From the NCBI GenBank assembly GCA_025617375.2, contig JAMYGW020000005.1, forward strand, positions 248,001 through 312,000: DNA of 64,000 nt. The letters run 5' to 3'. A program made the position numbers and the translations under genes. Below the pieces are notes generated by a model. That model did not search any database, was not told the DNA's origin, and worked only from the letters and a program-made list of their open reading frames with translations. The stretch is from Acarospora socialis. Lineage: Eukaryota > Ascomycota > Lecanoromycetes > Acarosporales > Acarosporaceae. Position 1 is the stretch's first letter, and every line of letters starts with the position of its first letter. Shown here in pieces: positions 1 through 64,000 of this stretch.

Positions 1-97
1 GAACTTACTTTTTTTCTAAAGCAGATAGTCTCATTATAAACTTGAGTCTGTCTTTCTTCAATGCATAAAAAATGTGTTCACAGTTACATTTCTTGTT

Positions 98-590
98 TCA
101 ACTGTCTTTTAAATGATACTTCACAAGATAAGCATCATAACAGTATACTGAGTGATCATTCATAAATAAAAAGTTTAATACTTCTGTGTCAAGCTTCATC
201 ATTTTGTTTATGACAGTGAAACACTGACTTATTATGTTTAATTTGATGACACTATTCAAAAAATAAAAAGCTAAAACTTGATCTTCTTTCACAATAATGA
301 TTTCTTTGATCACAATACTAAATCTAGTTTTTACTTTTGTTCTTCATTGTATTGTTATAAAAACTTCAATGAAACATTTTCTTTTTTTGACTGAGTCACT
401 GAGAAAATGCAGATATTGTTAAAGTTGTTTACTGACTTAATGTAATCACTAACATAGTAATTCTTTTCTTGACAGTGATAACATATCACATTCAGCTTTG
501 CTCTTAAGTGAACATTAAATGAATCTGACTTTGCATCAGTGTTATTATGTCATTCTGACTGCACAGTCTTCAAAGTTCTTTGATTATTAG
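98..590 (-). pseudogene. Zinc-knuckle and protease-like remnant of Gypsy I
   Basis: On the minus strand a knuckle-like stretch (CYHCQEKNYYVSDY, about 442-483) follows the CX2CX4HX4C pattern imperfectly. It is followed by a longer open stretch (98-313) that resembles the retropepsin region of fungal Gypsy elements. The order Gag, knuckle, protease fits Ty3/Gypsy. The function would have been RNA packaging and polyprotein cleavage. It is a fossil with many breaks, and the family call is inferred from layout and motif feel. Confidence 0.45.
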
Positions 591-598
591 AAGAAAAT

Positions 599-704
599 TG
601 TTGAGAATCTAACCACTAAGACAAAAGACCCACCTGACTGCAAGATCAGGTTCTAAGTGAATGTATAAGTGAATGTGCAGATTGTGCAGCACATGATCTC
701 AACA
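599..704 (-). repeat. TRIM LTR copy 1
   Basis: 106-bp LTR with TG...CA ends. It is close to the copies at 975 and 1,351 and keeps a short GACCC run that the others have lost. Confidence 0.85.
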
Positions 705-974
705 ACTGTTTCATCTTCACAAAAAGATGCTCACTCTCAAGCAAAAACACTATGTAATGAGTCTCAATTCAGGCTCAAATGCACACACATTCTTGTGAAT
801 TTGAGTCACAAATGAGTGCAGATCTCAGACACAGACAGTAAGCTTAAGTGTAATTAACACTCTCAGTGCAGTCTTCAGTGAGTCTTCAGCATTTGTGATC
901 TAGTCAGACTGTGCAATTTTGGTGTATCACACTTAGAAATTTGACACTGATAATGATCAGTTGATACTATCATT

Positions 975-1080
975 TGTTGAGAATCTAATCACTAAGACAA
1001 AAGATCTACCTGATCACAAGTTCAGGTTCTAAGTGAATGTATAAGTGAATGTGCAGGTTGTGCAGCACACAACCTTAACA
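975..1080 (-). repeat. TRIM LTR copy 2 (middle, shared)
   Basis: 106-bp LTR shared by the two units of the tandem array. It is flanked on both sides by the same 270-bp internal segment. Confidence 0.85.
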
Positions 1081-1335
1081 ACTGTTCTGTCTTTGCAAAA
1101 AGATGCTCATTCTCAAGCAAAAACACTATGTAATGAGTTTCAATTCAGACTCAAATGCACACACATTTTCACAGATTTGAGTCACAAATGAGCACAGATC
1201 TCAGATGTAGACAGTGAGCTCAAGTATAATTAACACTCTCAGTACAGTCTTCAGTGAGTCTTCAGCATTTGTGATCTGATCAGGCTGCATAATTTTGATG
1301 CATCACACTTAGAAATTTGACACTGATAGTGATCA

Positions 1336-1350
1336 GTTGATGCTATCATT
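1336..1350 (-). promoter_or_regulatory. TRIM primer-binding site (also at 960-974)
   Basis: Directly against the LTR, the minus strand reads AATGATAGCATCAAC here and AATGATAGTATCAAC at 960-974. The second is identical to the site after the 5' LTR of element D (12,921-12,935) and close to that of element C. It looks like a decayed site for the 3' end of initiator tRNA-Met, a few bases inside the LTR edge. The tRNA assignment is inference. Confidence 0.55.
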
Positions 1351-1456
1351 TGTTGAGAATCTAATCACTAAGACAAAAGATCTACCTGATCATGAGATCA
1401 GGTTCTAAGTGAATGTATAAGTGAATGTGCAGGTTGTGTGATGCACAATCTCAACA
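1351..1456 (-). repeat. TRIM LTR copy 3 (5' LTR in element orientation)
   Basis: 106-bp LTR that closes the array on the right. It ends TCAACA and is followed by the AGAAT copy of the target duplication. Confidence 0.85.
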
Positions 1457-1462
1457 AGAATG

Positions 1463-10401: not shown

Positions 10402-10565
10402 TGTTAGAGTGTAAATTTAAGCTATGTGATTCAAGATATAATATATAAGTAATAATTGAGAGTTTAAGTGAGTAAAGAGATGTGATCACTATATATGCAG
10501 CAAGAATGCTTAATAAGCATGCTTAGTCAGCATGATCTTATGTGAAGTGATCATGCTCTGTAACA
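10402..10565 (-). repeat. LTR of C (left)
   Basis: 164-bp LTR matching 11,726-11,889 and 39,965-40,128. It holds the 12-bp palindrome TAAGCATGCTTA at 10,514-10,525 and a TATATA-like stretch upstream of it. Confidence 0.9.
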
Positions 10566-10750
10566 AGTTCTCTTCTTTGAAACTGAAAGACAGTGTTCTC
10601 ACTGTAACAACTATCTATAACTATGCTCTATATTCATTTGACATCTCATCTGTTCTATAACTCATTATAATTCATTCTCATGATCTTGTTGTTGTTGTGA
10701 ATGTGGATGAAAATGTGGTGTGCTTGAAAAGATTGAATTTGAGTGTGAAT

Positions 10751-11165
10751 TTGATGTAAATTGACATGTGTTGTAGCTGTAAAAATGAGTGTAAATCAAG
10801 TGTGAAATTGTCAAAACAAAAGAGTAAAGACTGATAATTAGTTGTGTCAAAAAGATGTTGATTTGTATGTGTTTTTGATGTAAATTGAAACATGTTGTAG
10901 TTGTAGAAATGAGTGCAAAAATGAGTGTGAAATTGAGTTTGAAATCAACAAAACAAATGACTAAAGACTAGTAACAAGCTGTGTCAAAAGGATGTCAATT
11001 TGTATGCATTTTTGACATAAATTGAAACATGTTGTAGCTGTAGAAATGAGTGTGAAAATGAGTGTGAAAATGAGTTCAAAATTGACAAAACAAATAAATA
11101 AAGACTAGTAACAAGTCATGTCAAAAAGACATTGATTTGTATGCATTTTTGATGTTAAAAGAAAC
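10751..11165 (-). repeat. 124-137 bp tandem repeat inside C
   Basis: Units begin at about 10,751, 10,875, 11,012 and 11,149. Each contains TGATGTAAATTGAAACATG followed by GTTGTAGCTGTAGAAATGAG or close variants, except that the last is partial. Spacing is 124, 137 and 137 bp. It lies downstream of the gag-like remnant in element orientation. Confidence 0.75.
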
Positions 11166-11187
11166 AAGATATCATCACATGTTGATT

Positions 11188-11589
11188 TCAAATTAAGATG
11201 TTTATGTCATCTGAATTGAACACAAAGACAGTCACATGAGTGTGTAATCTCAGATGAAAGAAAGAAGTCATTTTCACTAAATGTTTAGTCTGTAATAGAC
11301 TCTTTGTGATCATGTTTGAGTATGACATTGTTGTCATGATGAAGCATGACATTGTTGTTAGATTTTGAGCAACAGATTTGATAAAGATCTTGATGAAAAT
11401 CTTGATGAAAATCTCATTGAAGATTTTGTTGAAGAATTTGATGACAAAAATCTCAGTAACAGACTCATTGATGATCTTGATAGAAATCTCAATAGAAATA
11501 AGATCTAATTGATGAAGAACTTGCATGACTATTTCTTCAACAACTTTCTTAATAATAATCTTCACTTCTTTGCATGTGACAGAGTTCAT
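11188..11589 (-). pseudogene. Gag-like remnant of C
   Basis: 133-codon minus-strand open stretch starting about 137 bp inside the primer-side LTR. Its early segment (EVKIIIKKVVEEI then LHQLD) resembles DDIKTIAKQAVDEI...HQFD in the protein region of element D, suggesting related accessory Gag-like proteins. A short low-complexity run of KIF/IFI repeats follows. The function is unknown; by position it may be a structural protein. The element is decayed, so the open length says little. Confidence 0.5.
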
Positions 11590-11710
11590 TGCTTAAGTGA
11601 TTCAATGAGTACTGAGTGTCATCTTTTGTATGAGAAATTACTAATAAATGAAAACTAAATGTAGAAACTTAATCAGTCTAATTAAAGAATCAAGCATAAG
11701 AATTTGTGCA

Positions 11711-11725
11711 GTTGGTGCTATCAAT
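11711..11725 (-). promoter_or_regulatory. Primer-binding site of C
   Basis: The minus strand reads ATTGATAGCACCAAC directly after the LTR end, like the sites in D and the TRIM array. It is consistent with a decayed initiator tRNA-Met acceptor-end site. Confidence 0.55.
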
Positions 11726-11889
11726 TGTTAGAGTGTAAATCTAAGTTATGTGATTCAAGATATAATATATAAGTAATAATTGAGGGTCTAAGTGAGTAAA
11801 GAAGTGTGATCACTATATATGTGATGAGAATGCTTAGTAAGCATGCTTAGTCAGCATAATCTCATGTGAAGTGATCATGCTCTGTAACA
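11726..11889 (-). repeat. LTR of C (right, 5' in element orientation)
   Basis: 164-bp LTR ending at 11,889, followed by the TTCTT duplication. It carries the palindrome TAAGCATGCTTA at 11,838-11,849. Confidence 0.9.
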
Positions 11890-12009: not shown

Positions 12010-12684
12010 TCAACACAGCTAAGTAAGTTCACAAGAGATCAGAAACATTCACAACAGTTAAATAAGTTTGCAAGACATCAGAAATGTTTGCAACAGCTGA
12101 GTAAGTTTGCAAGACATCAAAGATGTTTGTGACAGTTAAGTAAGTTCATGAGATGTCAGAAATGTTTACAATAATTAAGTAAGTTCACAAGATATCAGAA
12201 ATGTTCACAACAGCTAAGTAAGCTTGCAAGATATCAGAAATGTTTGCAATAGTCAGATAAGCTCATGAGATGTTAAAGATATTTATGATAGTTAGATAAG
12301 TTTGTAAGATATTAAAGACATTTACAACAGTTAAATAAGTTTGCAAAATATTAAAGACATTCATGACAGTCAGATAAGCTTGCAAGATGTTAAAGATGTT
12401 CACAACAGTTGAGTAAGTTTGTGAAATGTCAGAAATGTTTACAACAGTCAGATAAGTTCATAACACATTAAAAATATTCATAATAGTTAGATAAAACTCA
12501 CAGAATATCAGAAATAATTACAAAATACTGCAGAAAACTCACAGAACATCAAAAATGATCATAAAATACTGAAAAAGATTTGTAAAACATCAGAAATAAT
12601 CACAAAATACTGAAGAAGATCTGCAGAACATCAAAGATAATTATAAAACACTGAAGAAGATCTGCAAAACATTAAAGATGATTA
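12010..12684 (+). repeat. 39-bp minisatellite (left block)
   Basis: Tandem units of about 39 bp around AAGTTTGCAAGACATCAGAA and ATGTTTGCAACAG, drifting to about 41 bp towards the right end. The 39-bp period equals 13 codons, and one frame keeps a recurrent QLSKFARHQKCL-like pattern over many units. The block lies in the interior of F and is cut by element D at 12,684. It continues at 20,698. It is either part of F or an older repeat trapped in it. Confidence 0.8.
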
Positions 12685-12920
12685 TGTTATGATTATACTC
12701 TAGATGCTTTGCTTACCTGACTGCTTGTCTGATCATGTCTATTTGCTTAGATCTTATATAACTTTCACACATAGCTAGAGTGTAATAACAACAGACTTAC
12801 ACATTCACTTGATTTAGATAGTCATGACTCTACTTCACATACTAATTACTATATGACATTGAGCTCAATAGATCTCTACTGAGAACTTAACTTCTCATTG
12901 TGAGTATTGCACTTCTGACA
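12685..12920 (+). repeat. 5' LTR of D
   Basis: 236-bp LTR. It matches 20,457-20,692 closely, and several differences are TG/CA type. Confidence 0.9.
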
Positions 12921-12935
12921 AATGATAGTATCAAC
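12921..12935 (+). promoter_or_regulatory. Primer-binding site of D
   Basis: AATGATAGTATCAAC directly follows the 5' LTR. It is identical to the TRIM site at 960-974 on the other strand and similar to that of C. It fits a decayed initiator tRNA-Met 3'-end site, offset by about two bases. Confidence 0.55.
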
Positions 12936-13019
12936 AGTTTAATTTTATATCTTTATCTAAATCTTCTTATCAACCTCATTCATTCAATTCTTTCATTAAA
13001 CTCATCAAATTCACTCACT

Positions 13020-13732
13020 ATGACCTTCTACAACAACAACAACAACAGTTATTTTACTTCAGATCTTTACTATGACAACTACAACAATGAATACTATGAT
13101 CTTTATGTCTATCTTCAGCAAGCAAGAATGTTGATTACTTATGCTTGAGATATCATGCAAATCACATCTATTTGTGAGTCTTCTAAATTCATGTCATTGT
13201 CATTATCTGTTCATCTCAGTGATGATGACATCAAGACTATTGCAAAGCAAGCAGTTGATGAGATCTTTCATCAATTTGACAATCTACATCATCAAATCAA
13301 GTCTATAGAGCATACATCTTCATCTGAGTCTCTCATCAAATCTTCAATTCAGTCTTCTATATTGAGAACATCAATTCAGTCTATTCAGACTACTATTTCT
13401 ATTCTTTATACTTGTATAAAGATCACTAAGTCTAAGAATAAGAATACAGACATCATTAAGTTCTTCATTAATCATGTTGTTGAGTTTTTCATTAATCATA
13501 TCATTGAGTTCTTCATCAATCATGTTGTTGAGTTCATCATCATCACTCAAAACATTATTCAAAACATCATCACAACATTCTGTGCACTCATATGTCTATT
13601 TGTGGTGTTGACAAGTCTGACTCAGACTAAATTCACAGTAAATTCAGCTTCTATCACTCAACATATGTCACACACATATACAGTTTGTTTTGTCTTTGAT
13701 TTTGGTGAAAAACACTGTGAATTCATCATTAT
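13020..13732 (+). pseudogene. D gag-like protein remnant, left of E
   Basis: Plus-strand coding remnant starting near 13,020 with an Asn run (CAA/AAC repeat) and Tyr/Asn/Asp-rich sequence. A segment DDDIKTIAKQAVDEIFHQFD near 13,222 follows, then Ser/Thr-rich sequence and four short repeats of the FFINHVVE type at about 13,461-13,545. The 13,155-13,732 stretch remains open. E is inserted at its right end. I do not recognise a catalytic domain; a non-autonomous Gag or nucleic-acid-binding role is inferred from the finger on the other side of E. Confidence 0.55.
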
Positions 13733-14093
13733 TGTAACATTCTAACCTGAGATTTCTCAAGTATGTAGAGCTAAGAGTTTATGCTTGTTGATATAACAGC
13801 TGGTCTGAAACAGTTCTGGACTTTAACTCTTAGATGATTACTTAAGTTGAACATGATTGTTTTCATAAGAGAAATGACTCTACTATATAGAATGTGCTCA
13901 ATGTCTCTGCATTGAGCATTCTTGGTGTCTCAATGTCTTGATGTTGAGAGATTGAGTTCTCAGCTTGTCTGCTCACCATTGAGCTGTTGTGCTGTCATGT
14001 GACTGCTGTCTAGCAGTTTCTCTTGTACACACTTTGAACAAACTTCTAGTTTCAGACCTCTGAGTTTCTTTCTCTTCAGATATGATTGTAACA
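13733..14093 (-). repeat. 3' LTR of E (left on the window)
   Basis: 361-bp LTR with TGTAAC/GTAACA ends. Compared with 19,590-19,950 it differs at many TG/CA positions, for example TCTTGATGTTGAG against TCTCAATGTCAAG. Confidence 0.92.
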
Positions 14094-14158
14094 CCATTTT
14101 CTTTCTTCAAGTGCTAGTTCTCTAGGGTCTATTTAAGTGAGAGTATATAACAATCTCA

Positions 14159-14353
14159 TTGTCAGCAATGATGCTTTCTAAAAATTCCAATTGCCTAAGA
14201 ATTGCAAAGGAAATCCAACTTAGTGGTAGTCTCACTACATTCTCTTGTGAATTCTGTACTGCCTGTGGTCTTGATTGCTTTGTCATGGTTGGTGAAAGGT
14301 TGAAATGTGATAAGTGTACTTGTCACAGTTGTTCATGCATTGCAGTTTCATGA
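14159..14353 (+). CDS. Antisense Cys-rich open frame in E (accessory)
   Basis: A 64-codon frame on the strand opposite to E's Gag-Pol, between the chromodomain end and the 3' LTR. It begins with a CLRIAKEIQLSGSL-like segment, then Cys-rich groups: FSCEFCTACGLDC, KCDKCTCHSCSC. The spacing suggests a zinc-binding motif. From memory, similar small Cys-rich hypothetical proteins occur next to or inside fungal Gypsy elements; I could not search. A remnant with coiled-coil character follows at 14,390-14,562 on the same strand. Its role is unknown. It may be an element accessory gene expressed convergently with pol. Confidence 0.55.
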   Translation: MSAMMLSKNSNCLRIAKEIQLSGSLTTFSCEFCTACGLDCFVMVGERLKCDKCTCHSCSCIAVS

Positions 14354-14389
14354 AAGTCTCTCAACAGAACTTGTCTTTCTCTCTGAAAG

Positions 14390-14562
14390 AAAATAAGTGA
14401 TGTGAATGCAGCTCTTGATGCTCTTGCTGTCAAGATGGTGCATCTTCAAAAGACTTTGAACCAGATGAATCATCATGCTGCACAGAAGACTGATTGTCTT
14501 GCTGCTGAACTTGATAGTGATAATGATGAAACTGAGAATGAAGATTCTCAAACAATGTTGTA
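14390..14562 (+). pseudogene. Coiled-coil-like remnant next to the antisense Cys-rich frame
   Basis: Plus-strand sequence with ALDALAVKMVHLQKTL near 14,415 and an acidic end (ELDSDNDETENEDS near 14,507). Heptad-like leucine and alanine spacing suggests a coiled coil. It probably belongs to the same antisense accessory gene as 14,159-14,353. It is a remnant. Confidence 0.4.
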
Positions 14563-14589
14563 ACTTGTTGACTTGATGTCTTCATTCTT

Positions 14590-14800
14590 CTGAACTAATA
14601 TTGACTTTTTTTCTCAAAACATCAAAGTGTTCTTGCACAGTTCTTGAGGTTCTCTCTGGGTTCTCAGGTATTTTCTGAGGTATCATAATCTTTTCATTTC
14701 ATGAGATAGTGAACTTTTTCACTAATCATTCTCTTCTCTAAAATGTTCTCAACTTCATATTCTTCATTGAGTTTGACAGGTGTTTCATTAGTTTGAAGTG
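14590..14800 (-). pseudogene. E chromodomain remnant
   Basis: On the minus strand near 14,780-14,620 a chromodomain pattern is visible: PVKLNEEYEVENIL, KVHYLMK, KDYDTSENT, EPRENLKNC. This is the C-terminal end of integrase in chromoviruses and would guide insertion to methylated-histone chromatin. It is a fossil. Confidence 0.75.
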
Positions 14801-14949
14801 GTATGAACTGGTTGCAGTGCTGTAGCATGAATGCATGAAATACTGAGTGTATTCTCATTTTCTTGAGTAAGTCTAGTTCATAGCTTAACTCTTTGATGTT
14901 CTGTATGATCTTGAATGGTTCAATGCTCTTGTTTTCTAGCTTCTTGCTT

Positions 14950-15945
14950 TTTTTCTTTGTTCATATATTATTCATTCTTAGATATATCTTCTCTCCTTCT
15001 TCAAATGATTTTGCTCTTGTTGTTTGTTCTGTCTGTCTTCTGATTCATTCTGTTAGGTCTTGGTGTAGTTTTTTCATCTGAGTGATATTCAAAATTGCTT
15101 TTTGACTTTGTGATTCATGTCTTCTAGAATCTCACCATACCTCTGAGTTGTAGCTGTAGTTCACATAGAAAGATGTTTCTTTTGTGGTTTTGTTTCTTGT
15201 GTTGTTGTATGCAAACTGTGCTGTCAGCAACAGTCATACTCAGTTGTTCTGATTCTTGTTGACATAGTGTCTTAAGTATGTTTTTACTGTCTGATTCATT
15301 CACTTGCTTTGCTCATTCATCTGTGAGTGATATGCTGTTGACATCTTGTGTTTTATTCTGAGTTCTGCTGTGAGTGTTTTCCAAAATTTGCTTGTAAACA
15401 GCTTGTCTCTATTGGTGATAAATTCTTTTGATAGTCTGTGATTGCTAATCAATTCTCTCAGTATTGTGTATGTCAATATTGGTGCTGTTGTGGTTTCTCT
15501 GAATGAAATGAACATTGTGTACTTGATTAATCTGTTCACTATGATCAATATACTGTTGAATTTCATTTTTCATGCTGAATTCTTTGACAGTGATAGCTTC
15601 ATAATGAAGTTCATGATAACTGACTTTCATGGTGCATCTGATGTGTCTAGTCTTGTTACTTTGTCATATTACTTATCTCAATTGATCTTATTTCTTCAAC
15701 ATGAATCACACACAGCAATCATCTCAGTGATTTGATTTCTAAGATCACCAACATTGCATCTTCTTTGCACTAGATCTTCTGTGCATTTAACTTTCAGGTG
15801 TTTTCTGATTTTGCTGTGATGACACATCTTAATGAGTTCTTTGTCTGTTAAGAGAGCTTGCTTCATCTTGTATGTTGCTGCTAAGCTCTTTGTGAGAATT
15901 CTGTTGTTGTTTTTGCTCAGAATTTTGGTGTGTACTGTCTGTATG
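14950..15945 (-). pseudogene. E integrase remnant
   Basis: Minus strand. The zinc-binding region near 15,740-15,830 includes DLVQRRCNVGDLR and a CDSC end. The catalytic core lies at 15,300-15,600 with FNSILIIVNRLIKYTMFI, ELISNHRLSKEFITNRDKLF, FWKTLTAELRIKHKMSTAYH and MNEQSK, matching the Ty3/Gypsy core order. C-terminal basic sequence follows to about 14,950. It is a fossil with many breaks. Confidence 0.85.
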
Positions 15946-45800: not shown

Positions 45801-45879
45801 ATCTGACATTTTCACACTTGTTATCTACACTGAAGCAGTGAAAGACTTAGTTTGAGAAAAGATGTAAAAGAATATTATT

Positions 45880-47445: not shown

Positions 47446-47656
47446 TGTTGAGAAGTACAGTGTTCTAACTGCTTTCATAATCTTAGTTGAAATTAACATC
47501 AAAAATTACTCATTACTTATATAGTCTGTGTGACAGAGTATGTGAATAGACAATCTTTACAATTTATGTTGATCACAGTTAAGTCAACAGCATACATTTC
47601 ACTAGATAGACAGTTAGTCAACAGTATAGCACAAGTATTCTTTTTATCTTTCAATA
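47446..47656 (+). repeat. 3' LTR of A1
   Basis: 211 bp, TGTTGAGAAGTACAG...TTTCAATA. It matches 42,197-42,407. Confidence 0.9.
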
Positions 47657-48522: not shown

Positions 48523-48697
48523 TATTGATAGATAAAGAATACTCATGCTATACTGCTGACTAACTGTTTATCTAGTGAAATGTACACTATTAATTTGACT
48601 GTGATCAACATAAGTTGTAAAGATTGTTTATGAGTAACTTCTGACACTAGTTTCAACTAAGACTATGAAAGCAGCTAGAACACTGCACTTCTTAATA
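48523..48697 (-). repeat. 3' LTR of A2
   Basis: 175-bp LTR in reverse, matching 53,679-53,853. Confidence 0.85.
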
Positions 48698-48769
48698 CTC
48701 TTACTTGATGATGCTGCATCTATTGACTTTCATTAACAGTAAGTTTCAGTTGTTCAATAAAGCACTTAA

Positions 48770-50300
48770 AAATTTATTTAAATAAAAACTTGATTAATTC
48801 ATTAGTCATCATGTCTTGACTAAGCACAAAGTTCACATCAATTTGATTTTGCTTGTGCAGATCATGAATATGATAATAGATAATGTTAATGTATTTTAAT
48901 TGTTCATGCATATATACATTCTTAATCAGAATCAAAACAATTTAATTGTCTTTCTTGAGCTGAAAAAATAAGATTACTTAATGAACTTCATTCTTCTTAA
49001 TGTTTACACAGTATAAATTATCTTCAAGATACTTATTCATATTTATGTCTTACAGAATCTGTGTAAGTCAGACTTCAGTCTTTGCACATATTGATATAAT
49101 TATATATTCAGTCTCTGTAATTAAGATGACAATAAACTTTTGTTTTTAATTTACTCATGATATTGATCTGTCTTTAAGCATGTATATATGTCTCAGAATT
49201 GATTTTTGATCTTGTTTGTCTGATGTATAGTTAAAGTTAAAATATTTAAGTATGACTTAACTTTCACTGAACTATTACACAATGTCAAAATTAATAATTA
49301 ATTTCACATATTACAGCAGTTTCTTAAGCACATGTTCATGATGTTCTGCAAAATCACTAAAATACTGACTTAGTCAATTTAGAGTAAAGATGATATTCAG
49401 TCAAATATGAATTGCTGTGTACATCAGACTTTCAATTACATATTAATATTGTTTTTAATCTATTCTTTGATCAGCTGAGTTGATGAGATAAAAAACATTA
49501 TATTTATTAAGTGAAATTGTTGTGATCTTGTGCTTATCAAATTACATATGAAGATCTCTCAGCATCTTGTTTACATAGTGAGTTTAATTTAAATATAGAG
49601 TTCTTCTCTTGCAGTTATATGTGACTTGTATATTAAGAATTTTCTGTATTTTCTTCAAGTTCTTAATTTTAAACATCTTCATAAGAACTTTCTTAAATTA
49701 AAAAACATATATTAAATTTACTGAAACTACAATCATATTGTTTACATAGAGAAGCAGCATGATTCTTTTGATGCTGTTGATGAAAAAACATAAATCAGTA
49801 TTATTTTAATGAAAATTTAGTTTGTACAGATCAATGACACATTGTTTATATCAGTTTTACATAGCTTGCTTCAGATTATAAAGACTACACAGTATATGTA
49901 GTACATAATTAAATGCAATTTGAACTTCAGAAAAAACTGTCATGTAGATGATTTTTTTAAGAAAGAATTTTATGAAAATGTTGTTGACATCTATTTAATG
50001 ACATTCAAAATTCTTAAGAGCAACAATGACAGAAAAAACTCAAAGAGTGTTGAATTTGACTGTAGATGTGAAGATGTTCTCATAATCAATGTTATATGTT
50101 TGTAAAAAATCTCTCATCACAACTTTTATTTTAAACTTGTTCAGAAATTCATCAGTATTTAGTTTAAATTTGAACACTTACTTACTGATTATTATATTTG
50201 TATTCTTTGATGACACAATCTCTTCTTATGTTCTGTTGACTGTTAGAGTCATTAATTTTGCATAAATAACATTTTTTTACATCTTTTCTCAGACTGAGTC
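48770..50300 (-). pseudogene. A2 reverse transcriptase and RNase H remnant
   Basis: Reverse complement of A1 45,800-47,400 in full order. Plus-strand open stretches here are only antisense shadows. The catalytic loop lies near 49,745. It is a fossil with many breaks. Confidence 0.75.
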
Positions 50301-52190
50301 TCTCACTGCTTCAGCATAAATGACAAATATAAAAATATCAGATTTAATGTTTTCAGTATCTTTCTCATTATCTGTGATGAATGCTGTAAGTGTCAGCATA
50401 ATTTGTGATATCTTAATTATGAACTTGTTGAAGTCTTCATTATTGTCATTTTATTTTCTCTTTGAAATCTCAATGCACAAGAATGTCTTGACTTTCTCAG
50501 TTAAAATATTCAGTGCTTTACTGACAGAAACTTTAATATGTAAAAACTACTTAATCTTATTTTGTTTACTTATCTGTAATTTGTTTAAATTGATTACAAT
50601 TGATTTATTCATCATATGAATATCTGATGAGAATGTGTCAAAATTGTTTGCAGTTAACTTAAATTCTTTTTTGTCATTTCAATTCATAAATTTAAATCTG
50701 TGAATTTACTCAGCAACAGTAGACAGAGTTGTAGATGCTGTAAAATCTATGATGACTGCATTTTTTCATGATCACTCAACTAATTTTTATTCAGACAGAA
50801 TGTTCAGCATTTATTTTTGCAGTTTGAGATTAACACTGTCTTTCTTTTCATTCTCAATGAACTTTACAGCATAACTCTTAATGATCTGCTTAAGATCTGA
50901 GACTTAAAGTAAATACTGTTTTGTGATTTTATCTGTATAATTCATGAAGACTTTTACTTATTCTTAATTCATAAACTTATTCTATCTATTCTTCAGCAAC
51001 AACTTGAAGTCAATATAGAAGTAGTACTTGCAATCTCAGACACAAATGTAATCAATAAACAGCTATACATCAGTGAAGATCTTCTCTGAAATTATTTGTC
51101 TGTCATTGATTAAGAAATCAGTTGCTGTTCAATTGCAAAAATAAATATTTATTTGTACTGTCTTCATTCAGAACTTTATTGAAAGTTCTGTTTTTTTAAT
51201 TATGATGTATATTGAATTTTCAGTGATATAAATGATTTTTCTAGTAATATCATTCTGAATAAACATATAAAACACAGTATATTGCAGTGTAATGTTAAAA
51301 AATCTGCATCAGTTATTCAGAATTGATCTTAATTCTGTAACATTATCACTTTATACAATAAGTATTTTCACACTCATCTGAAGCTCAATCTTTAATTATT
51401 ACTCTTGTAGTTTCTGTAAAACATTATTGCATTATTTCAGCAGTATTATTTATGTCTTTCAAAAATAATTGTTCACAATTTTCAGAAAGTTCTGATGTTC
51501 AGTAAATGACAGAGATAAAGAACTGTATATGTCAATGAAAATTAGAATAAAAATATTGATCTTTTTCTTGTTTACATTGTGTTCTCACTAATTGACAAAC
51601 TTAATGAAAACACAAACTTCACAGATATTCTTCTTGTCTTCAGCAATCAGAATTGATTTTTTAAGAATTGTTACTTTGTAAAGATCATGAAGTTTTGCAG
51701 AATTAAGATGAATAAATCATCAGTGTTACAGCTTGTAGATTTTGATTTTCTCACTTAAAAATAAAATGTCAATAAAAGATGAAGTGTCAGCAGAGCTTAA
51801 TGAATCAGTCTGCATCTGAGAGTTTACATTCAGTACTGTGACTAAAAAAGTCATCTTTGAATTAAATAACACATATATGACAGATAACAGAACAAATTCA
51901 TTCAGTTTTTTTGCAATGTGTTTAACTATATAGACATTACTTCACTCAGACACTTCTATTATAACATTGTTATATTTATTTTGCATGTAAAGACTGTGCT
52001 GATCAAAGCTTTTCTGCAATTTCATTTTACACATTTACTTTCTCAACAGAAGATTGACTTCTAGTTCAGATACATAAAGTGTTGAACTTAAATTTATAAA
52101 GTTTCTGAATCTGTTCTGCATGATTGCAACTTTATAGTAATGTGAATATAAGTGTTCTTTCTTAACTTTGATTCATCAACATCATATACA
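50300..52190 (-). pseudogene. A2 protease, pre-integrase and integrase remnant
   Basis: Reverse complement of A1 43,930-45,800. The SEKIKIYKL-equivalent segment is near 51,735-51,760, and the linker that is open in A1 lies at about 50,400-50,620. It is a fossil with many breaks. Confidence 0.65.
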
Positions 52191-52199
52191 TATTAAGAA

Positions 52200-53330
52200 A
52201 TCACTAAAAAATTGATGTTAATCAGTTATATATATGAAGTATTCAGAGTTCATAACTCATTCAGAGCTGAGTATCTTACTAATAGTTTTCTTAAACAGAG
52301 TAACAATCTTATTGTCTTTCTCTGTGTCAGACTCAGATGAAAATAAGTCACTGTTTTTCTCAGTCTCAGCATTAAAAATCTTATGTCTTCTCTCTTTGTG
52401 CTTAAATTCTAACTTGTTGTGATGTGAGTTGTCTGCAGTTAACTTACTTAACTTTTTCAACTTAATGTTCTTGTGAGCAGCAGAAAGATATTCACAATCT
52501 TAAATGCAATGAATGCTGCAGCAAAGAAGACACTTAAATAATTTGCAGTAAAAAGAGTGCTCATTGTCAGAGCTTGATGATCTTCAATAATGATATCTCA
52601 CATCATGTTGATATGTGTGCATCAGATCTCACTCATTCTTGTGTAAATCTGTTTACAGAGTAGTCTCTGTGATCTTCAGCTGTGTTTTTTTTTTTTGAAA
52701 TTTCTGCAAATCTCTCTCAATATTTAAAATGTTCTGAGTATTAATTGCATCACAAATCACTATATAGTTCTTCAGTAGTGTCTGAAGCAATGTTTAAAAC
52801 TGTTGCACTGACTTGAACAGTTAAGTCATATCAGATTGAGTTGCAGTAATCTTTCTGTTAAACTTGCTGAGATAAACTTACACTTCATCAATAAACATGT
52901 CTGCTGACATTCTGTACTCAATGAACTTTATTATATATTGTTTTTCAGTAATCTGCAACTTTTTCTTGTATTTGAATCTCAAGACATCTCAAACATTCTT
53001 TACATTGATCTTATCTGTCAAATATTCTTGATTGTCTGTACTGATGTAAATAATGAGTCAGTATAAGATCTTTACATCAGTCTTCTGATTTCTGAAGTCA
53101 AAATTGCTTAAAAAAAAGAAGAAGTCATTGACAGATGTGTTGATCACTGAGATCTCAATGATGTATTATAGATCTTCATCTATCAGTCATTTTTTCATGA
53201 AAGTGAATCATTAATTGCAGTTTTTCTGAGTGAGAACTGAAACAAATTGTTGCTTCACAAAAGAGTTGTCAAAGTTCATGATGTAACTTGTGATGATAGT
53301 TGGCACATAGTATAAGAAATGAATAAACTA
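52200..53330 (-). pseudogene. A2 Gag and zinc-knuckle remnant
   Basis: Reverse complement of A1 42,780-43,920. The basic linker after the knuckle (KHKERRHKIFNAETEKN) stays open at 52,460-52,257. It is a fossil. Confidence 0.7.
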
Positions 53331-53389
53331 ATGTAATAAGATGTATGAGAAAAAAAAAGATAATGTAAATAAGAGAAAGAATATGTTTG

Positions 53390-53660
53390 TGTGTGTGCTT
53401 GTTTTGCTTGATCATTGAGCATTGTATTAAGCTGCTGATATGTCTCATTTTACTTAATCTTTGAGCTTCATATTGAGTGTTGAGAGTGTCATTTTGCTCA
53501 ATCTTTGAGTTATGTATTGACTGTCAAAAAATATTGTTTTGCTTAATCTTAGAGCTCTGTATCAATGACTGATAATGCTTGTTTTGCTTAATCTTTAAGT
53601 TCTTATATCAAGTTGTCAAGACATTAAAACAGTATACACTTTCTTTGAGAAGCTTCTTGC
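53390..53660 (-). repeat. Leader tandem repeats of A2
   Basis: On the plus strand TTTTGCTTAATCTTTGAGCT-type units of 40-45 bp. These are the reverse of the A1 leader. Confidence 0.75.
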
Positions 53661-53678
53661 TAATCTAAGTTCATAATT

Positions 53679-53853
53679 TATTGATAGATAAAGAATACTT
53701 GTGCTATACTGCTGACTAACTATTTATCTAGTGAAATGTACACTGTTAACTTAATTATGATCAACATGAGTTGTAAAAATTGTCTATGAGCAACTTCTGA
53801 CACTAGTCTCAACTAAGACTATGAAAGCAGCTAGAACACTGCACTTCTCAACA
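53679..53853 (-). repeat. 5' LTR of A2
   Basis: 175 bp in reverse, ending CTTCTCAACA, then TCTAT. Confidence 0.85.
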
Positions 53854-54864: not shown

Positions 54865-55074
54865 TGTTGAGAAGTGCAGTGTTCTAACTACTTTTATAGT
54901 CTTAGTTAAAACTAACATCAGAAGTTGCTCATTATTCATATAGTTTACATGACAGAGTATGTGAATAGACAATCTCTACAACTTACATTAACTATAATTA
55001 AATTAATGATATACATTTCAATAGATAAACAGTTAGTCAGCAGTATAGCATAAGTATTTCTTTATTTCTCAATA
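54865..55074 (+). repeat. 5' LTR of A3
   Basis: 210 bp, TGTTGAGAAGTGCAG...TCTCAATA. It is followed by AATTATGAGCTCAAAT, the least decayed half-tRNA-Met primer site among the A copies. Confidence 0.85.
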
Positions 55075-55109
55075 AATTATGAGCTCAAATTAGCAAGAAG
55101 CTTCTTAGA

Positions 55110-55350
55110 GAAAGTGCATACTGTTTTAATGTCTCAGCAGCTTGATATAAGAACTCAAAGATTGAGCAAAACAAACATTACTGATCATTAATACAAAACT
55201 TTAAGATTGAGTTAAACAATATTTTTTGACAGTCAATACAGAGCTTAAAGATTAAACAAAACAGCACTTTTGACACTCAATACAGAACTTAAAGATTGAG
55301 CAAAACAAGACTTATTAGCAACTTAATATGATACTTAACAGTTGAGCAAA
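55110..55350 (+). repeat. Leader tandem repeats of A3
   Basis: About five units of 40-45 bp with cores such as AAGATTGAGCAAAACAA. Confidence 0.7.
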
Positions 55351-55419
55351 TAAACATTTACACTTCTTCTTTCTCTTATTTACATTATCTTCTTCTGTAC
55401 ATCTTAATACTTCATTTTA

Positions 55420-58400
55420 TTCATTTTTTATATTAAGTGTCAACTGTCATCAAAAGCTACATTATGAATTTCAACAACTCTTTCATTAAGTAACAATTCA
55501 TTTCAATTCTCAGTCACAAGAACTGCAATCAATGATTTACTCTCATGAAAAGATGACTGATAAATGAAGATCTATGATATATCATCAAGATTTCAGCAGT
55601 CAACACTTTAATTAACAGCTTTTTCTTTTTTTTTAGCAATCTTAACTTCAAAAGTCAGAAGTTCAACACAAAAACTCTGTACTAACTCATTATCTATATC
55701 AGTACAGATAATCAGAAATACATTGTAAACAAAATCAATGCAAAAAACACTTAAAATATCTTGAAGTTCAAATACAGAAAGAAGCTGCAAATCATTGAAA
55801 AACAATATTTAACAAAGTTTATTGAATACAGAATATCAACAAATGTGTTTATTAATAAAGCATGAACACATTTCAGCAAGCTTGACAGAAAGATTGTGAT
55901 CACTTAGTCTGATATAATTAATTTATTCAAGTTTGAACAACAATTTCAAACACTTCTTCAAGCACTATTTAAAAATTACACAATGATTTACAACACAATC
56001 AACACTCAAAACATCTCAAACATTAAAAGAAATCTGCAGAAGCTTTAAGAGAAGAAGACACAATTAAGAACTATTGAAACTGTCTTATAAGTAAATCAAT
56101 GCAAAGAGAAAAATTCAGCACACTTATATCAGCATGATATGAGATATCATTATTGAAGATCATTAAGCTCTGACAACAATCATTCTTCTCAGCATAAATC
56201 AGTTAAATATCTTCTCTGTTATAATTCTTATCACATTTAAGACTGTGAATATCTTTCTGCTGCTTGCAAAAATAATAAGTTAAAAAAGTTATTTGTTTCA
56301 ATTACAGTTAAGTTAGTTAGAAAGTTAGACAAATTGTCTGCAAACAATTCACATCATAAAAACAAAATAAGATTCAAGCACAAGAATAGAAAGCATAGAG
56401 TTTTCAATGTCAAGATTGAGAAAAATAATGACTCATTCTTATCTGAGTTTAACACAGAGAAAGAAAATAAGATTGTTACTTTGTTTAAGAAAGCTATTAA
56501 TAAGATATTCAACTTTAAATGAGTTGTGAACTCTGAATACTTTATATACATAATTAATCAACATTAATTCTTCAGTGATTTCTTAATATACATATGATGT
56601 TAACAAATCAAAGTTGAGAGAAAACACTTATACTCACACTATTATAAAGTTGCAGTCATACAGAATAAATTCAGAAACTTTGTAAATCTGAGTTTAACAC
56701 TTTATGTGTTTAAACTAGAAGTCAATCTTCTGTCAGAAAAGCAAATATGTAAAATAAAATTGTAGAAAAGCTTTAATCAGTACTGTCTTTACATGCAAAA
56801 TAAGCATGACAATGTCATGATAAAAGTGTTTGAGTAAGACAGTATCTACATAGTTAAACACATTGCAAAAAAACTGAATGAGTTTGCTCTATTATTCATC
56901 ATGCACATATTACTCAATTCAAAGATGACTTTTTCAGTCACAATATTAAATGTGAACTCTCAGATGCAGACTGATTCATTAAGTTCTGTTAACACTTTAT
57001 TTTCTACTGACATTTCATTTTTAAGTGAGAAGATTAAGATCTATAAGCTGTGACATCAACAATTTACTTATTTTGACTTTACAAAACTTCATGATCTTCA
57101 CAAAGTCACAATTCTTAAGAAATCAATTTTCATTGCTGAAGACAAGAAAAACATCTGTGAAGTTTGTGTTCTCATTAAGTTTGTGTTCTCATTAAGTTTG
57201 TTAATCAGTAAAAACACAATATGAGCAAGAAAAAGATCAACATTCTTGCTCTGATTTTCATTAATATATGTATTTTTTTATCTCTGTCATTTACTGAACA
57301 TCAGTACTTTCTGAAGATTGTGAACAACTATTTTTAAAAGACATAAATAATACTGCTGAAGCAACACAATAATATTTCACAGAAACTGTAAGAGTAACAA
57401 TTAAAGATTGAGTTTCAAATCAATACAAAAGTGCTTGTTGTATAAAGTAACAATGTTACAAAGTTAAGATTAACTTTGAATGACTGATGTAAATTCTTTA
57501 ACATTACACTGCAGTACACTGTGTTCTACATGTTTATTTAAAATGATGTTGTTAAAAAAATCATATATATCACTGAGAATTCAGTGCACATCATGATTAA
57601 AAAGACAGAACTTTCAATAAAATTCTGAGCAGTGACAACATGAATAGATGTTTATTTTTACAATTAAATAGTAATTAATTTCTTGATCAATAATAGATAA
57701 ATAACTTTGAAGAAGATCTTCACTGATATGCAATCATTCATTGATCATATTCATATTTAAGATTGCAAGTGCTACTTCTATATCAATCTTAAGTCATTGC
57801 TGAAAAGTAGACAGAATAAGTTTATAAATTAAGAATAAATAAAAGTTTTCATGAACTATGCAGATAAAATCACAAAACAGTATCTGCTTTAAATTTCAGA
57901 TCTTAAGCAAATCATTAAGAATTATGTTGTGAAGTTCATTAAGAATAAGAAGAAAAACAGTGTTAATTTTAAACTGCAAAGATAAATATTAAACATTCTG
58001 TCTGAACAGAAATCAGTTAAATAATCATGAAAAAATGTAGTCATTATAAATTTTACAACAGCTACAACTCTGTTTACTGTCTCTGAGCAAATTCACAGAC
58101 TTAGATTTATGAATTTAAACAATAAAAAAGAGTTTAAATTAACTGCAGACAATCTCAACACATTCTTATTAAATATTCATATGATAAATAAATCAATCAC
58201 AGTCAACTTAAACAGATCACAGACAAGTAAATAGAGTGAGATTAAGTAGTTTTTACACATTGAAGTTCTTGTCAGCAAAGCACTGAACATTTTAACTGAA
58301 AAAGTTAAGACATTCTTGTATATTGAGATTTTGAAGAGAAAATAAAACAATAACAATGAAGATTTCAACAAATTTATAATCAAGATATTACAAACTATGC

Positions 58401-58446
58401 TGACATTCACAGTATTCATCACAGATAATAAGAAAAATACTGAGAA
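55420..58446 (+). pseudogene. A3 Gag, protease and integrase remnant
   Basis: Matches A1 42,780-45,790 in order. The basic linker near 56,334-56,522 (SHHKNKIRFKHKNRKHRVFN) stays open. A small direct duplication, TAAGTTTGTGTTCTCAT, lies at about 57,175-57,200. It is a fossil with many breaks, cut at 58,446 by A4. Confidence 0.7.
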
Positions 58447-58655
58447 TGTTGAGAAGTATAGTGTTCTAACTGCTTTCATAATCTTAGTTGAAACTAATGT
58501 CAGAAGTTACTCATTTTCATATAGTCTGCATGACAGAACATGTGAATAGATAATCTCTACAATTCATGTCAATCATAATCAGATTGATGATGTATGTTTC
58601 ACTAAATAGACAGTTAGTCAGCAGTATAACACAAGTATTCATTTATTTCTCAATA
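58447..58655 (+). repeat. 5' LTR of A4
   Basis: 209-bp LTR, followed by AATTATAAGTTCAGATT (primer site). Confidence 0.9.
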
Positions 58656-58729
58656 AATTATAAGTTCAGATTAGCAAGAAGCTTCTTAGAGAAAGTGCAT
58701 ACTGTTTTAATGTCTCAGTAGCTTGATAT

Positions 58730-58980
58730 AAGAGCTCAAAGATTGAGCAAAACAAGCATTACTAACTATTGATATAAAGCTTTAAGATTGAGCAAAATGA
58801 CACTCTCAGCAGCTTGATACAGAATTAAAATAAACATTCTTGACTGTCAATACAGAGCTTAAAGATTGAACAAAATGACATTCTTAACACTTGATATGAA
58901 ACTTTAAGATTGAGCAAAACAAGACTTATTAGCAACTTAATATGATACTTAACAGTTGAGCAAATAAACATTTACACTTC
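58730..58980 (+). repeat. Leader tandem repeats of A4
   Basis: GATTGA cores at 58,741, 58,786, 58,864 and 58,908, with a weaker unit near 58,822. Spacing is 36-45 bp. Confidence 0.75.
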
Positions 58981-59029
58981 TTCTTTCTCTTATTTACATT
59001 ATCTTCTTCTGTACATATTAATATTTCAT

Positions 59030-60200
59030 TTTATTCATTTTTTATATTATGTGTCAACTGTTATCAAAAGCTACATCATGAATTTTGATAACTCTTTCAT
59101 GAAGTGATGACTCATCTCAATTCTCAGTTGCAAGAACTGCAATTAATAATTCATTCTCATAAGAAAATGACTGATAAATGAAGATCTGTGATATACTGTT
59201 GAGATCTCAGTGATTAACACTTCTGTTAATGACTTTTTCTTTTTACTCAGCAATTTTAATTTCAGAAGTCAGAAATCTAATATAAAAACTCTGTACTGAT
59301 TCATCATCTATATCAGTGCAGATGATCAGAAATACATTGTAGACAAAATTAATACAAAGAATATTTGAAATATCTTGAAGTTCAAATACAAGAAGAAGCT
59401 GCAGATCACTGAAAAACAATATTTGATGAAGTTTATTGAATATAAAATGTTGATAAATATATTCATTAATGAAGCATAAACACATCTCAGCAAGCTGAAC
59501 AGAAAGATTGCTGTGACTCAGTTTGATATGACTGATTTATTTAAGTTTGAACAACAATTTCAGACATTTCTTCAAGTATTATCTGAGAACTACACAATGA
59601 TCTACAACACAATCAACATTCAAAATATCTTAAACATCAAAAGAAGTCTGCAGAAGCTTCAAGAGAAAAAGATACAATTAAAAACTGTTGAGACTTTCTT
59701 GTAAGCAGATTGATGCAGAGAGAAAAATCTGATATATTTATATCAGCATGATGTGAAATATCATTATTAAAGATTGTTAAGTTCTGACAATGATTATTCT
59801 TTTCAGTGTAAATCAGTTAAATATCTTCTCTGTTGTGATTTTCATTGCATTTAAAACTGTGAATATCTTCTTGCTGCTTGCAAAAATATTGAGTTAAAAA
59901 AGTTATCTGTCTTGATTATAATCAAGTTAGTCAAAAAATTAGACAAGTTGTTTGCAGACAACTCACATCATAAAGACAAAATAAGATTTAAGCACAAGAA
60001 CAGAAAGTATAGAGCTTTTAATACTAAAATTGAGAAAAACAGTGACTCATTCTTATCTGAGTCTGATATAGAAAAAGATGATGAGATTGTCATTTTGTTT
60101 AAGAAAGCTGTCAGTAAAATATTCAGCTCTGAATAAATTGTGAATTCTGAATACTTCACATACATAATTAATCAATATTAACTTTTCAGTGATTTCTTAA
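59030..60200 (+). pseudogene. A4 Gag and zinc-knuckle remnant
   Basis: Copia Gag helices at 59,513-59,704 (FDMTDLFKFEQQFQTFLQVL) stay open. The knuckle region follows near 59,835 and the basic linker at 59,912-60,136. It is a fossil. Confidence 0.72.
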
Positions 60201-62050
60201 TATGCATATGATGTTGATGAATCAAAGTTAAGAAAAAACACTTATACTCACACTACTGTGAAGTTGCAGTCATACAAAATAAATTCAGAAATTTTGTGAA
60301 TCTGAATTCAACACTCTATGTGTCTGAACTAGAAGTTAATCTTTTGTTGAGAAAGTAAATATATGAAATGAAATTGCAGAAAAGCTTTAATCAGCATAGT
60401 CTTTACATGCAGAATAAACATAACAATGTTATGATAGAAGTGTCTGAGCAGAATGATGTCTATATAATTAAATACATTGCAAAAAAACTGAATGAGTTTG
60501 TTCTGTTATCTGTCATACACATATTACTTAATTCAAAGATAACTCTTTCAATCACAGTACTGAATGTGAACTCTTAGATGCAGACTGATTCATTAAACTT
60601 TGTTAACACTTTATTTTCTGTTGACACTTCATTTTTAAGTGAGAAGATTAAGATCTACAAGCTGTAACATCAATGATTTGTTCATCTTGATTCTGTAAAA
60701 TTTCATGATTTTTACAAAGTTATGATTTTTAAAAAGTCAATTTTCATTGCTGAAGATAAGAAGAATATCTGTGAAGTTTGTGCTCTCATTAAGTTTGTCA
60801 ATCAGTGAAAACACAATGTGAACAAGAAAAAGATCAACATTCTTGCTTTAATTTTCATTGATATATGTGATTTTTTATCTCTGTCATTTATTGAACATCA
60901 GTACTTTCTGAAGATTGTGAACAATTATTTTTGAAAGACATAAATAATATTGCTGAAACAACACAATAATGTTTCACAGAAACTGCAAGAGTGACAATTA
61001 AAAATTGAGCTTCAAATTGATGCAAGAGTGCTTACTATATAAAGTAACAATGTTACAGAATTAAGATTAATTCTAAATGACTGATGCAGATTCTTTAACA
61101 TTACACTGCAGTGCACTGTACTTTATATATTTATTCAGAATAATGTTGTTGAAAGAGTTATTTATATCACTGAGAACTCAGTGCACATCATGATTAAGAA
61201 GACAGAACTTTCAATAAAGTTTTAAGTGAAAATAACATAAACAGATGTTTATCTTTGCAATTGAACAGCAATTGATTTCTTAATCAATGACAGACAAATA
61301 ACTTTGAAAAGAATCTTTATTGATGTGCAGTCATTCATTAATTATATTCATGTTTAAGATTGCAAGTGCTACTTCTATATTGATTTCAAGTTGTTATTGA
61401 AGAACAGACAGAATAAGTTTATAAATTAAGAATGAGTGAAAGTTTTCATAAACTATGTAAATAAAATTACAAAACAGTATCTGCTTTGAACTTCAGATCT
61501 TAAATAAATCATCAAGAATTATGCTGTAAAGTTTACTGAGAATGAGAAGAAAGACAGTGTTGATCTTAAACTGCAAAAATAAATGCTGAATATTCTGTCT
61601 GAACAAAAATCAGTTAAATAATTACAAAAAAATGCAGTCATCACAGATTCTGCAGCATTTACAATTCTGTTTACTGTCTTTGAGTAAACTTACAGATTTA
61701 AATTCATGAATTCAGATGACAAAAAAGAATTCAAATTAACTATAGACAATCTTGACATATTTTCATCAGACATTCATATGATTAATAAATTAATCACAGT
61801 TAACTCAAACAGATTACAGACAAGTAAATAGAATGAAATCAAGCAGTTTTTACATATTGAAGTTTCTGTCAGCAAAGTACTGAATATTTTAACTGAGAAA
61901 GTCAAGACATTCTTGTGTGTCAAGATTTTAAAGAGAAAACAGAACAATAATGATGAAGACTTTAATAAGTTCATGATTAAAATATCATGAACTATACTGA
62001 TACTCATGATGTTCACTGCAGATGATAAAAAAAATACTGAGAACATCAAA
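60201..62050 (+). pseudogene. A4 protease, pre-integrase and integrase remnant
   Basis: Matches A1 43,930-45,790. FNQHSLYMQNKHNNVMIEVS near 60,383 is the best preserved copy of that segment. It is a fossil with many breaks. Confidence 0.68.
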
Positions 62051-63600
62051 TCTGATATTTTCACATCTGTCATCTATATTAAAGCAGTGAGAGACTTAAT
62101 CTGAGAAAAGATGTAAAAAAATGTTATTCATGCAGAATTAACAGTTCTGATAGTCAATAGAACATGAAAAGAGATTGTGTCATTAAAGAATGCAAATATA
62201 ATGATCAGTAAATAAGTATTCAAACTTAAGCTGAACATTGATGAATCTCTTGACAAATTTAAGACAAAAGTTATGACAAGAGATTTTTTACAGATATATA
62301 ACATTAATTATGAGAACATCTTTGCATTTACAGTCAAGTTCAACACTCTTTGAGTCTTTCTTGTCATTTTTATTCTTAAAAATCTTGAATGTCATCAGAT
62401 AAACATTAATAATATTTTCACAAAATTCTTTCTTAAAAAATTATCTACATAACAGTTTTTTCTGAAGTTCAAGTTGCATCTAACTGTGTACTGTGTATAC
62501 TGTGTAGTTTTTATAATCTGAAGTAAACTGTGTAAAATTGACATAAATGATGCATCACTGATCTGTGCAAACTAAATTTTCATTAAAATAATACTGATTT
62601 ATGTCTTTTCATTAACAGCATTAAAAGAATCATGCTGCTTCTTTATGTAAACAATATAATTGTAGTTTCAGCAAATCTAACACATGTTCTTTGATTTAAG
62701 AAAGCTGTTATGAAGATATTCAAAGTTAAGAACTTAAAGAAGACACAGAAAATTCTTGACATATAAATTACACACAATTACAAGAAAAGAGTTCTACATT
62801 TAAATTAAACTCACTATGTAAACAAGATGCTGAGAAATCTTCATATGTAATTTGATAAGCACAAGATCACAACAATTTCACTTAATAAATATAATGCTTT
62901 TTATCTCATCAACTCAGCTGATCAAAGAATAGATTAAAGATAATATTAACATGTAATTGAAAGTCTGATGTACACAGCAATTCATACTTGACTGAATATC
63001 ATCTTTACTCTCAATTGACTAAGTCAGTATTTTAGTGATTTCACAGAGCATTATGAACATGTGCTTAAGAAACTGCTGTGATATATGAAATTAATTATTA
63101 ATTTTGACATTGTGTACAGACTCAGTGAAAGTTAAGTCATGCTTAAATATTCTGACTTCAACTATATATCAGACAAACAAGATCAAAAATTAATTCTGAA
63201 ATATGTGTACATGCTTAAAGATAAATCAGTGTTATAAACAAGTCAAAAACAAAAGTTTGTTGTCATCTTAATCACAGAAACTGAATACATGATTATATCA
63301 ATATGTGCAAAGACTGAAGTTTGACTTGCACAGATGCTGCAAAACATAAATATAAATAAGTATTTTGAAGATAATTCATACTGTGTGAGCATTAAGAAAA
63401 ATGAAGTTCATCAAGCAGTCTTATCTCTTCAGTTTAAGAAAGACAATCAGACTGTCTTGACTTTAATTAAGAATGCACATGTGCATGAATGATCAAAATA
63501 CATTAATATTGTTTATCATCATATTCATAATCTGCACAGACAAAATCAGATTGATGTGAATTTTGTGCTTCATCAAGACATAATGATTGATGAACTAATT
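62050..63600 (+). pseudogene. A4 reverse transcriptase and RNase H remnant
   Basis: Matches A1 45,800-47,400. The catalytic loop is near 62,640 (LLLYVNNI). The ESLMYTAIH segment is near 62,960 and RNase H follows to about 63,600. It is a fossil with many breaks. Confidence 0.75.
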
Positions 63601-63694
63601 AAGTTTTTATTTAAATAAATTTTTAAGCACTTTGTTGAACAACTGAAACTTACTGTTAATGAAAGTCAATAAATGCAGCATCATTAAGTAAAAG

Positions 63695-63903
63695 TGTTAA
63701 GAAGTACAGTGTTCTAGCTGCTTTCATAATCTTAGTTGAAACTAACATCAGAAATTGCTCATTTTTATATAATCTGCATAACAGAGTATGTGAACAGACA
63801 ATTTCTACAATTTATGTTGATTACAGTTAAGTTAATGATGTATGTTTCACTAGATAGACAGTTAGTCAGCAGTATAGCATGAGTATTCATTTATCTCTCA
63901 ATA
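63695..63903 (+). repeat. 3' LTR of A4
   Basis: 209-bp copy of the 5' LTR, followed by the GAGAA duplication. Confidence 0.9.
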
Positions 63904-64000
63904 GAGAACATCAAATCTGATATTTTCACATCTGTCATTTACACTGAAGCAGTAAGAGATTCAGTCTGAGAAAAAATGTAAAAAAATATTATTTATGCAG

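Follow-up and report, generated by a model that had tools for sequence, protein, structure and literature searches.

The 64,000-nucleotide (64-kb) stretch analysed here (the window: Acarospora socialis, assembly GCA_025617375.2, contig JAMYGW020000005.1, positions 248,001 to 312,000 of the forward strand) is, as predicted from its sequence, a nest of dead long terminal repeat (LTR) retrotransposons (Table 1) in which not a single CpG dinucleotide is left. An exact 5-bp target-site duplication (TSD) flanks elements D, E and F, a short LTR element and a solo LTR (5/5), which shows that they were inserted in place. In element E, four domains exceed the Pfam cut-off (reverse transcriptase (RT), RNase H, Tf2-1-type SH3 and chromo), and a zinc-binding integrase match falls slightly short of it; all lie in one frame that is broken by stops, and the RT/RNase H and integrase parts align to Ty3 in a phmmer comparison. 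Element F carries, also in one frame, RVT_2 above the Pfam cut-off and a copia gag match under it, and a PDB search with this element returned no match. Once the nested E is set aside, element D retains ~1.3 kb of internal DNA (12921-13732 and 19951-20456), and it looks non-autonomous, going by this short interior. A further, older family is represented by copies A, B, C and D plus several fragments, and copy D was inserted into copy C of its own family (58447-63903 within 54865-64000). This family is putatively copia-like, following an earlier first-pass annotation of the same sequence and our reading of the open reading frame (ORF) at 46561-46989 in copy A, which gave only sub-cut-off Pfam hits; the three forward frames of copy D gave no Pfam match, and sub-cut-off hits of short ORFs were treated as chance. 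A search of the window for host genes detected no tRNA and no Rfam family at gathering score. In a collection of viral contigs, neither E nor a copia-like ORF had a related locus, and a degenerate pattern of the E LTR matched nothing there or in a collection of genome contigs; both collections are non-fungal.

Table 1. Repeats and elements of the window, in positions counted from its first nucleotide.
Feature	Position	Strand	Remarks
Whole window	1-64000		No CpG within elements or between them
Tandem array, 376-bp unit, ~2.2 copies	598-1457		15 CC/GG remaining
Short LTR element	10402-11889		LTRs 10402-10565 and 11726-11889; TSD TTCTT
Element D (LTR element)	12685-20692		236-bp LTRs; TSD GATTA; E nested within
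Element E, Ty3/gypsy chromodomain retrotransposon	13733-19950	-	361-bp LTRs; TSD ATTAT
Element F, Ty1/copia retrotransposon	25376-30619	+	176-bp LTRs; TSD ATATC; 2 CC/GG; CpA/CpT nearly intact
Older fragment, old copia-like family	30622-33048	+	Most mutated of the five copies in the context counts
Solo LTR, family of the 10402-11889 element	39965-40128		TSD AAGAT; 9 CC/GG remaining
Old copia-like copy A	42197-47656	+	LTRs ~210 bp; 5-bp flanks at these ends do not match
Old copia-like copy B	48523-53853	-	TSD TCTAC/TCTAT (one C/T change)
Old copia-like copy C	54865-58446	+	Interrupted by copy D; continues from 63904
Old copia-like copy D	58447-63903	+	Inserted into copy C; exact 5-bp TSD GAGAA

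The first-pass annotation, made by eye, had described the window as free of CpG and graded in CC and GG, and counting bears out both. CpG occurs 0 times, where the base composition predicts 1,216 (Poisson probability of none, ~10^-528), and is missing after each of the four possible 5' bases, while GpC, which has the same composition, is found 1,299 times (observed/expected, o/e, 1.07) and hence at a normal level. CC (56, o/e 0.05) and GG (110, o/e 0.09) are nearly gone, with ~1,200 expected of each, and TA is depleted (5,681, o/e 0.68), while CA (4,780, o/e 1.50) and TG (4,844, o/e 1.51) are in excess, as are TC and GA (both ~1.3; TC 1.34), in a sequence of 72.4% A+T and 27.6% G+C. The remaining CC and GG, 166 in total, are concentrated in elements E and D (119); 6 lie in the short LTR element and 2 in F, those of the tandem array and of the solo LTR being given in Table 1, and the final 9.3 kb form the longest run without CC, GG or CG. 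The same annotation had proposed a full dinucleotide count as its own check, and the count returned zero CpG with CpA above expectation; of the results that it named as contradicting it, normal CpG or the ratios of CpA-directed repeat-induced point mutation (RIP), neither was seen. Indeed, the two usual RIP indices of the window, TpA/ApT (0.76) and (CpA+TpG)/(ApC+GpT) (1.47), both fall on the "no RIP" side of quoted cut-offs of 0.89 and 1.03 (PMC3828140).

The fate of the lost CpGs could be followed between copies, an ancestral CpG being recognised where some aligned copies carry TG and others CA. At 146 such sites in the five old copies, the 643 site-copies (not all independent, see below) comprised 277 TG, 249 CA, 117 TA and no CG. 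When each site was defined from the other copies only (leave-one-out), the 512 site-copies comprised 211 TG, 175 CA, 117 TA, 9 other dinucleotides and again no CG. Every recognised CpG is now TpG or CpA, depending on the strand struck, and some later became TpA. Younger copies fared no better: the LTR pair of element E holds 9 TG/CA sites and no transversion in 361 bases, and CpG is zero in the other younger pairs too, though CpC partly remains there. CpG is the first target of the mutation. The choice of strand leans over the whole length of some copies, copy C favouring CA (19 TG and 57 CA in the leave-one-out count, that is 57/76 CA, p = 1.5e-5), unlike copies A and D, which lean to TG. No rule based on the 5' base was found for which strand of a CpG is struck; after a 5' T, the share of hits on the same strand is 0.47 and thus not raised, although saturation could mask a weak preference. 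A count of exactly zero is unusual in itself and could suggest in-silico conversion or filtering of the sequence, or the loss of CGs in assembly, which we regard as extremely improbable: TG or CA varies by copy at these sites, CC and GG persist in some elements, and the target-site duplications are exact, a combination that no single filter yields.

The order of the remaining contexts was established from pairs of copies, the share still C being calculated as 2 x both-C sites / (2 x both-C + C/T sites), a measure to which sites lost in both copies are invisible. Five younger pairs were pooled: the LTRs of E, element D and F, the tandem with the 376-bp unit, and a single pair from the short-LTR family. 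Adding the sixth pair would have counted one short LTR twice, and it was excluded. In this pool, CpC was still C at a share of only 0.40 (7 both-C and 21 C/T sites), against 0.94 for CpT (160 and 20) and 0.96 for CpA (177 and 14); CpC differed sharply from CpT and CpA together (p = 2e-12), and CpT and CpA did not differ from each other (p = 0.23). Similar shares were obtained with all six pairs (CpC 7/22, CpT 178/24 and CpA 199/16 both-C/C/T sites, or 0.39, 0.94 and 0.96) and with the E, element D and F pairs alone (0.38, 0.94 and 0.98). The order "CpG first, CpC second", which the first-pass annotation had drawn from absence, is therefore upheld by change between copies. In the old copia-like copies, ~0.7 of CpA and CpT are still C, so ~30% were lost. 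The abundance of CpA and TpG, which that annotation had noted, needs qualification: both stand at 1.5 times expectation, but largely because they are products of CpG and not because they are immune, and CpA, like CpT, was slowly eroded. Change is overwhelmingly by transition, with only 28 transversions among 762 mismatches between old copies A and D (5,455 aligned bases).

Within CpC, the two cytosines are not equivalent. At the CC sites of the younger pairs (CCC excluded), the first C changed 19 times and the second 3 times (p = 0.0009); the 5' C of CpC is the main target in younger copies, giving TpC/GpA. APOBEC3G-like deamination targets the second C of CC, and this candidate was set aside on the same younger-pair counts, the old alignment being indecisive. 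Surviving CpCs, counted on both strands, are preceded by A in 121 of 166 cases (73%), compared with 6,424 of 17,475 CpA/CpT sites (p = 6e-21). A 5' A may thus protect CpC; the younger pairs alone did not confirm this effect (p = 0.56), and no such rule was seen at CpG.

Loss of CpC does not simply track LTR divergence, as F, whose LTRs are 95.5% identical, has lost almost all of its CpC, and E, at 89.2% identity, has kept part of it; the CC/GG gradient is consequently not a matter of age alone. The same pair of elements bears on whether two processes overlap here, a fast one acting on CpG and CpC in young copies and a separate, later and slow one on CpA and CpT. We consider this rather unlikely. 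F, in which CpG and CpC are almost gone while CpT (0.98) and CpA (0.96) stay, would fit it when set against E, which keeps a third of its CpC and has CpT at 0.91; however, the F ratio comes from few sites (176-bp LTRs with 3 C/T differences at CpT and CpA), and a single process, if its context scale is steep, approximates the profile too.

Such a single scale was explored in a simulation of mutation. When CpG and CpC mutation was carried to completion from 46-50% G+C, the resulting o/e values (CA 1.61-1.68, TC 1.48-1.52, TA 0.56-0.64; TpA/ApT 0.56-0.64) came close to those of the internal part of F (CA 1.61, TC 1.52, TA 0.59; TpA/ApT 0.61), with a G+C content of 0.32-0.34 in the simulation vs 0.293 in F. 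Adding a slow loss of CpA and CpT from 42-50% G+C gave CA 1.43-1.49, TC 1.29-1.35 and TA 0.78-0.84, which comes close to the whole window (CA 1.50, TC 1.34, TA 0.68). In a simulated Neurospora-like order, CpG was enriched and TpA/ApT rose to 1.24-1.34, a profile opposite to that of the window.

The damage to coding sequence was examined by comparing element E with Ty3, residue by residue, over 7 of the 9 aligned blocks in RT and integrase. All five Ty3 tryptophans in these blocks fall on TGA codons in E, and since a TGG to TGA change is a CpC hit on the opposite strand, these were counted for CpC targeting. Of the Ty3 arginines, 4 of 36 fall on stops, and only 1 of 24 glycines is kept. Part of the difference is probably ordinary divergence, Ty3 being a distant relative. 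A change of genetic code in which TGA encodes tryptophan was set aside, because stops of E also fall on Ty3 arginines and CpG is lost between the elements too.

Altogether, we think it likely, from comparison of the copies, that the nest owes its destruction to active C-to-T hypermutation of a RIP-like kind, with the order CpG > CpC >> CpT and CpA. The rate of CpG loss favours an active process. The LTR pairs of E, element D and F contain no transversion in 773 aligned bases, and yet at their 13 TG/CA sites the CG was lost in 26 of 26 site-copies, which places the CpG rate at least ~1,100-fold above the per-site transversion rate. Spontaneous deamination of 5-methylcytosine usually gives an excess of a few tens. 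We judge the ratio too high for this origin, and active hypermutation is favoured over passive decay; in old copies A and D, likewise, 596 C/T differences at CpA and CpT are found vs 28 transversions. The first-pass annotation had offered a RIP-like or a methylation-deamination process, and this argument favours the first of these over passive deamination.

Passive decay would have methylated CpG (and some CpC) in transposons lost slowly by spontaneous deamination, the explanation offered for the rust Austropuccinia psidii, whose gypsy and copia elements are CpG-poor, AT-rich and without "RIP" by the usual indices, as in the window (PMC8063080, PMC12774611). The striking of either CpG strand here, with no strand tracts, is compatible with such decay. 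In the rust, however, CpG loss rises gradually with element age and is attributed to 5-methylcytosine deamination, and CpC is over-represented genome-wide (same sources), whereas in the window CpC is nearly gone and the age-linked gradient in CpG that passive decay predicts is missing, CpG being zero also in E, element D and F. Given in addition that the loss is complete in LTR pairs without transversions, we find this explanation clearly unlikely.

Several observations nevertheless weigh against active, context-ordered hypermutation of duplicated elements. The stretches between elements are as CpG-free as the elements themselves (no CG in 12 of 12 listed intervals), so that, as regards action on duplicates, the multi-copy elements are mutated but so are these intervals. 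Strand tracts are absent inside elements: agreement between neighbouring dead CpGs did not exceed that of shuffles in any of the five old copies (5/5) and was below it in the oldest. CpG outcomes are correlated between some copies (CA in copy D with TG in copy C at 0 of 49 sites, the reverse at 16), so the 643 site-copies overstate the number of independent events; shared mutated ancestry or a site-specific strand choice is a possible cause. At the CC sites inferred in the old alignment, TC (206) and CT (199) are about equally frequent, only sites that show both being recognisable. In the comparison of E with Ty3, three glutamines fall on stops, and proline changed to serine 9 times and to leucine 7 times, with no clear support for the first C. 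In both elements TGA predominates among the stops of the coding frame (79 of 100 in E, 44 of 58 in F), but it does so in their five remaining frames as well; this excess was therefore dropped as a sign of frame-specific damage and is weak evidence by itself. Finally, the rates of the simulation were chosen by hand, and its TA remained too high for the window.

The hypermutation proposed here resembles RIP and is not classic RIP. As in classic RIP, repeat-inactivating C:G to T:A transitions far outnumber other changes; the CpA preference was tested for and was not found. RIP follows the order CpA>CpT>CpG>CpC in Neurospora crassa, and in Trichoderma reesei CpA and CpG are about equal, followed by CpT and then CpC (PMC5496416), whereas in the window CpC comes second, CpA is lowest together with CpT, and TpA is depleted, not enriched. 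CpG comes first, as here, in the MATE repeats of Aspergillus nidulans (PMC2621366) and in Ganoderma sinense (PMC4457147), but the second target of both is CpA. A survey of 10 fungal genomes by Amselem et al. gives CpA, CpT and CpG signatures and leaves CpC unmentioned in its main text (PMC4352252). The CpG preference of Microbotryum takes the form TpCpG (PMC4352252); this Pucciniomycotina-type preference is not what the window shows, since it lacks CpG after every 5' base. Rhizoctonia solani AG8 has CpG among its preferred targets, as in the window, and in its table of single-nucleotide polymorphisms, which is unnormalised, CpC changes are spaced more closely than those at CpG (PMC4014442), possibly a similar, little-noted signal. 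Monilinia shows classic, CpA-directed RIP accompanied by double changes of CpC to TpT (PMC8959702). CpG-directed RIP-like mutation is thus already known, and the unusual feature is the clear second rank of CpC. In the literature searched we found no description of CpC as second RIP target, which is no proof of absence, subscription journals lying mostly outside its coverage.

The RIP of Coccidioides was reportedly shown by Neafsey et al. in 2010 to be distinct from that of Neurospora, and its repeats are said, in that work and in those of Sharpton (2009) and Clutterbuck (2011), to lose CpG strongly, unlike those of Neurospora; this is the closest precedent. The window could then simply exemplify a RIP whose profile has been published for Coccidioides/Onygenales or for a close relative, which is compatible with active hypermutation and bears on its novelty. 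We take this to be possible though not the likelier case. In its favour, Coccidioides transposons have 28-39% GC (PMC5872316), close to the 27.6% of the window, and PMC8063080 credits Neafsey et al. 2010 with a CG context.

As to mechanism, active hypermutation would recur, probably once in every sexual cycle as RIP does, each round driving first CpG and then CpC towards zero while CpA and CpT erode. The agent could be a cytosine methyltransferase of the DNMT1 class (RID/Masc1-like or other) with an altered context preference or, alternatively, a deaminase coupled to such an enzyme. More tentatively, and with slightly more doubt than confidence, we propose a fungal machinery whose cytosine-modifying enzyme recognises a C that precedes either G or C (CpS). 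CpC would then be a genuine second target, perhaps a weaker one after a 5' A, and CpG would be driven to exactly zero across tens of kilobases; this would be RIP with its preferences nearly inverted, which two common indices score as absent. If a host enzyme does prefer CpG and CpC, its comparison with Neurospora RID would make the choice of cytosine in RIP directly testable. Because the two indices score this 64-kb graveyard as RIP-free, surveys that rely on them could miss whole lineages. In addition, the choice between TG and CA at each dead CpG is a record of the strand that was struck.

Two further observations concern the neighbourhood of elements E and D. Between 14094 and 19589, element E has a CC o/e of 0.13 on the plus strand vs 0.43 for GG, a strand bias that extends over the whole element. 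To the left of element D, positions 12024-12458 hold a tandem repeat of a 39-bp unit (~11 copies, 74% matches).

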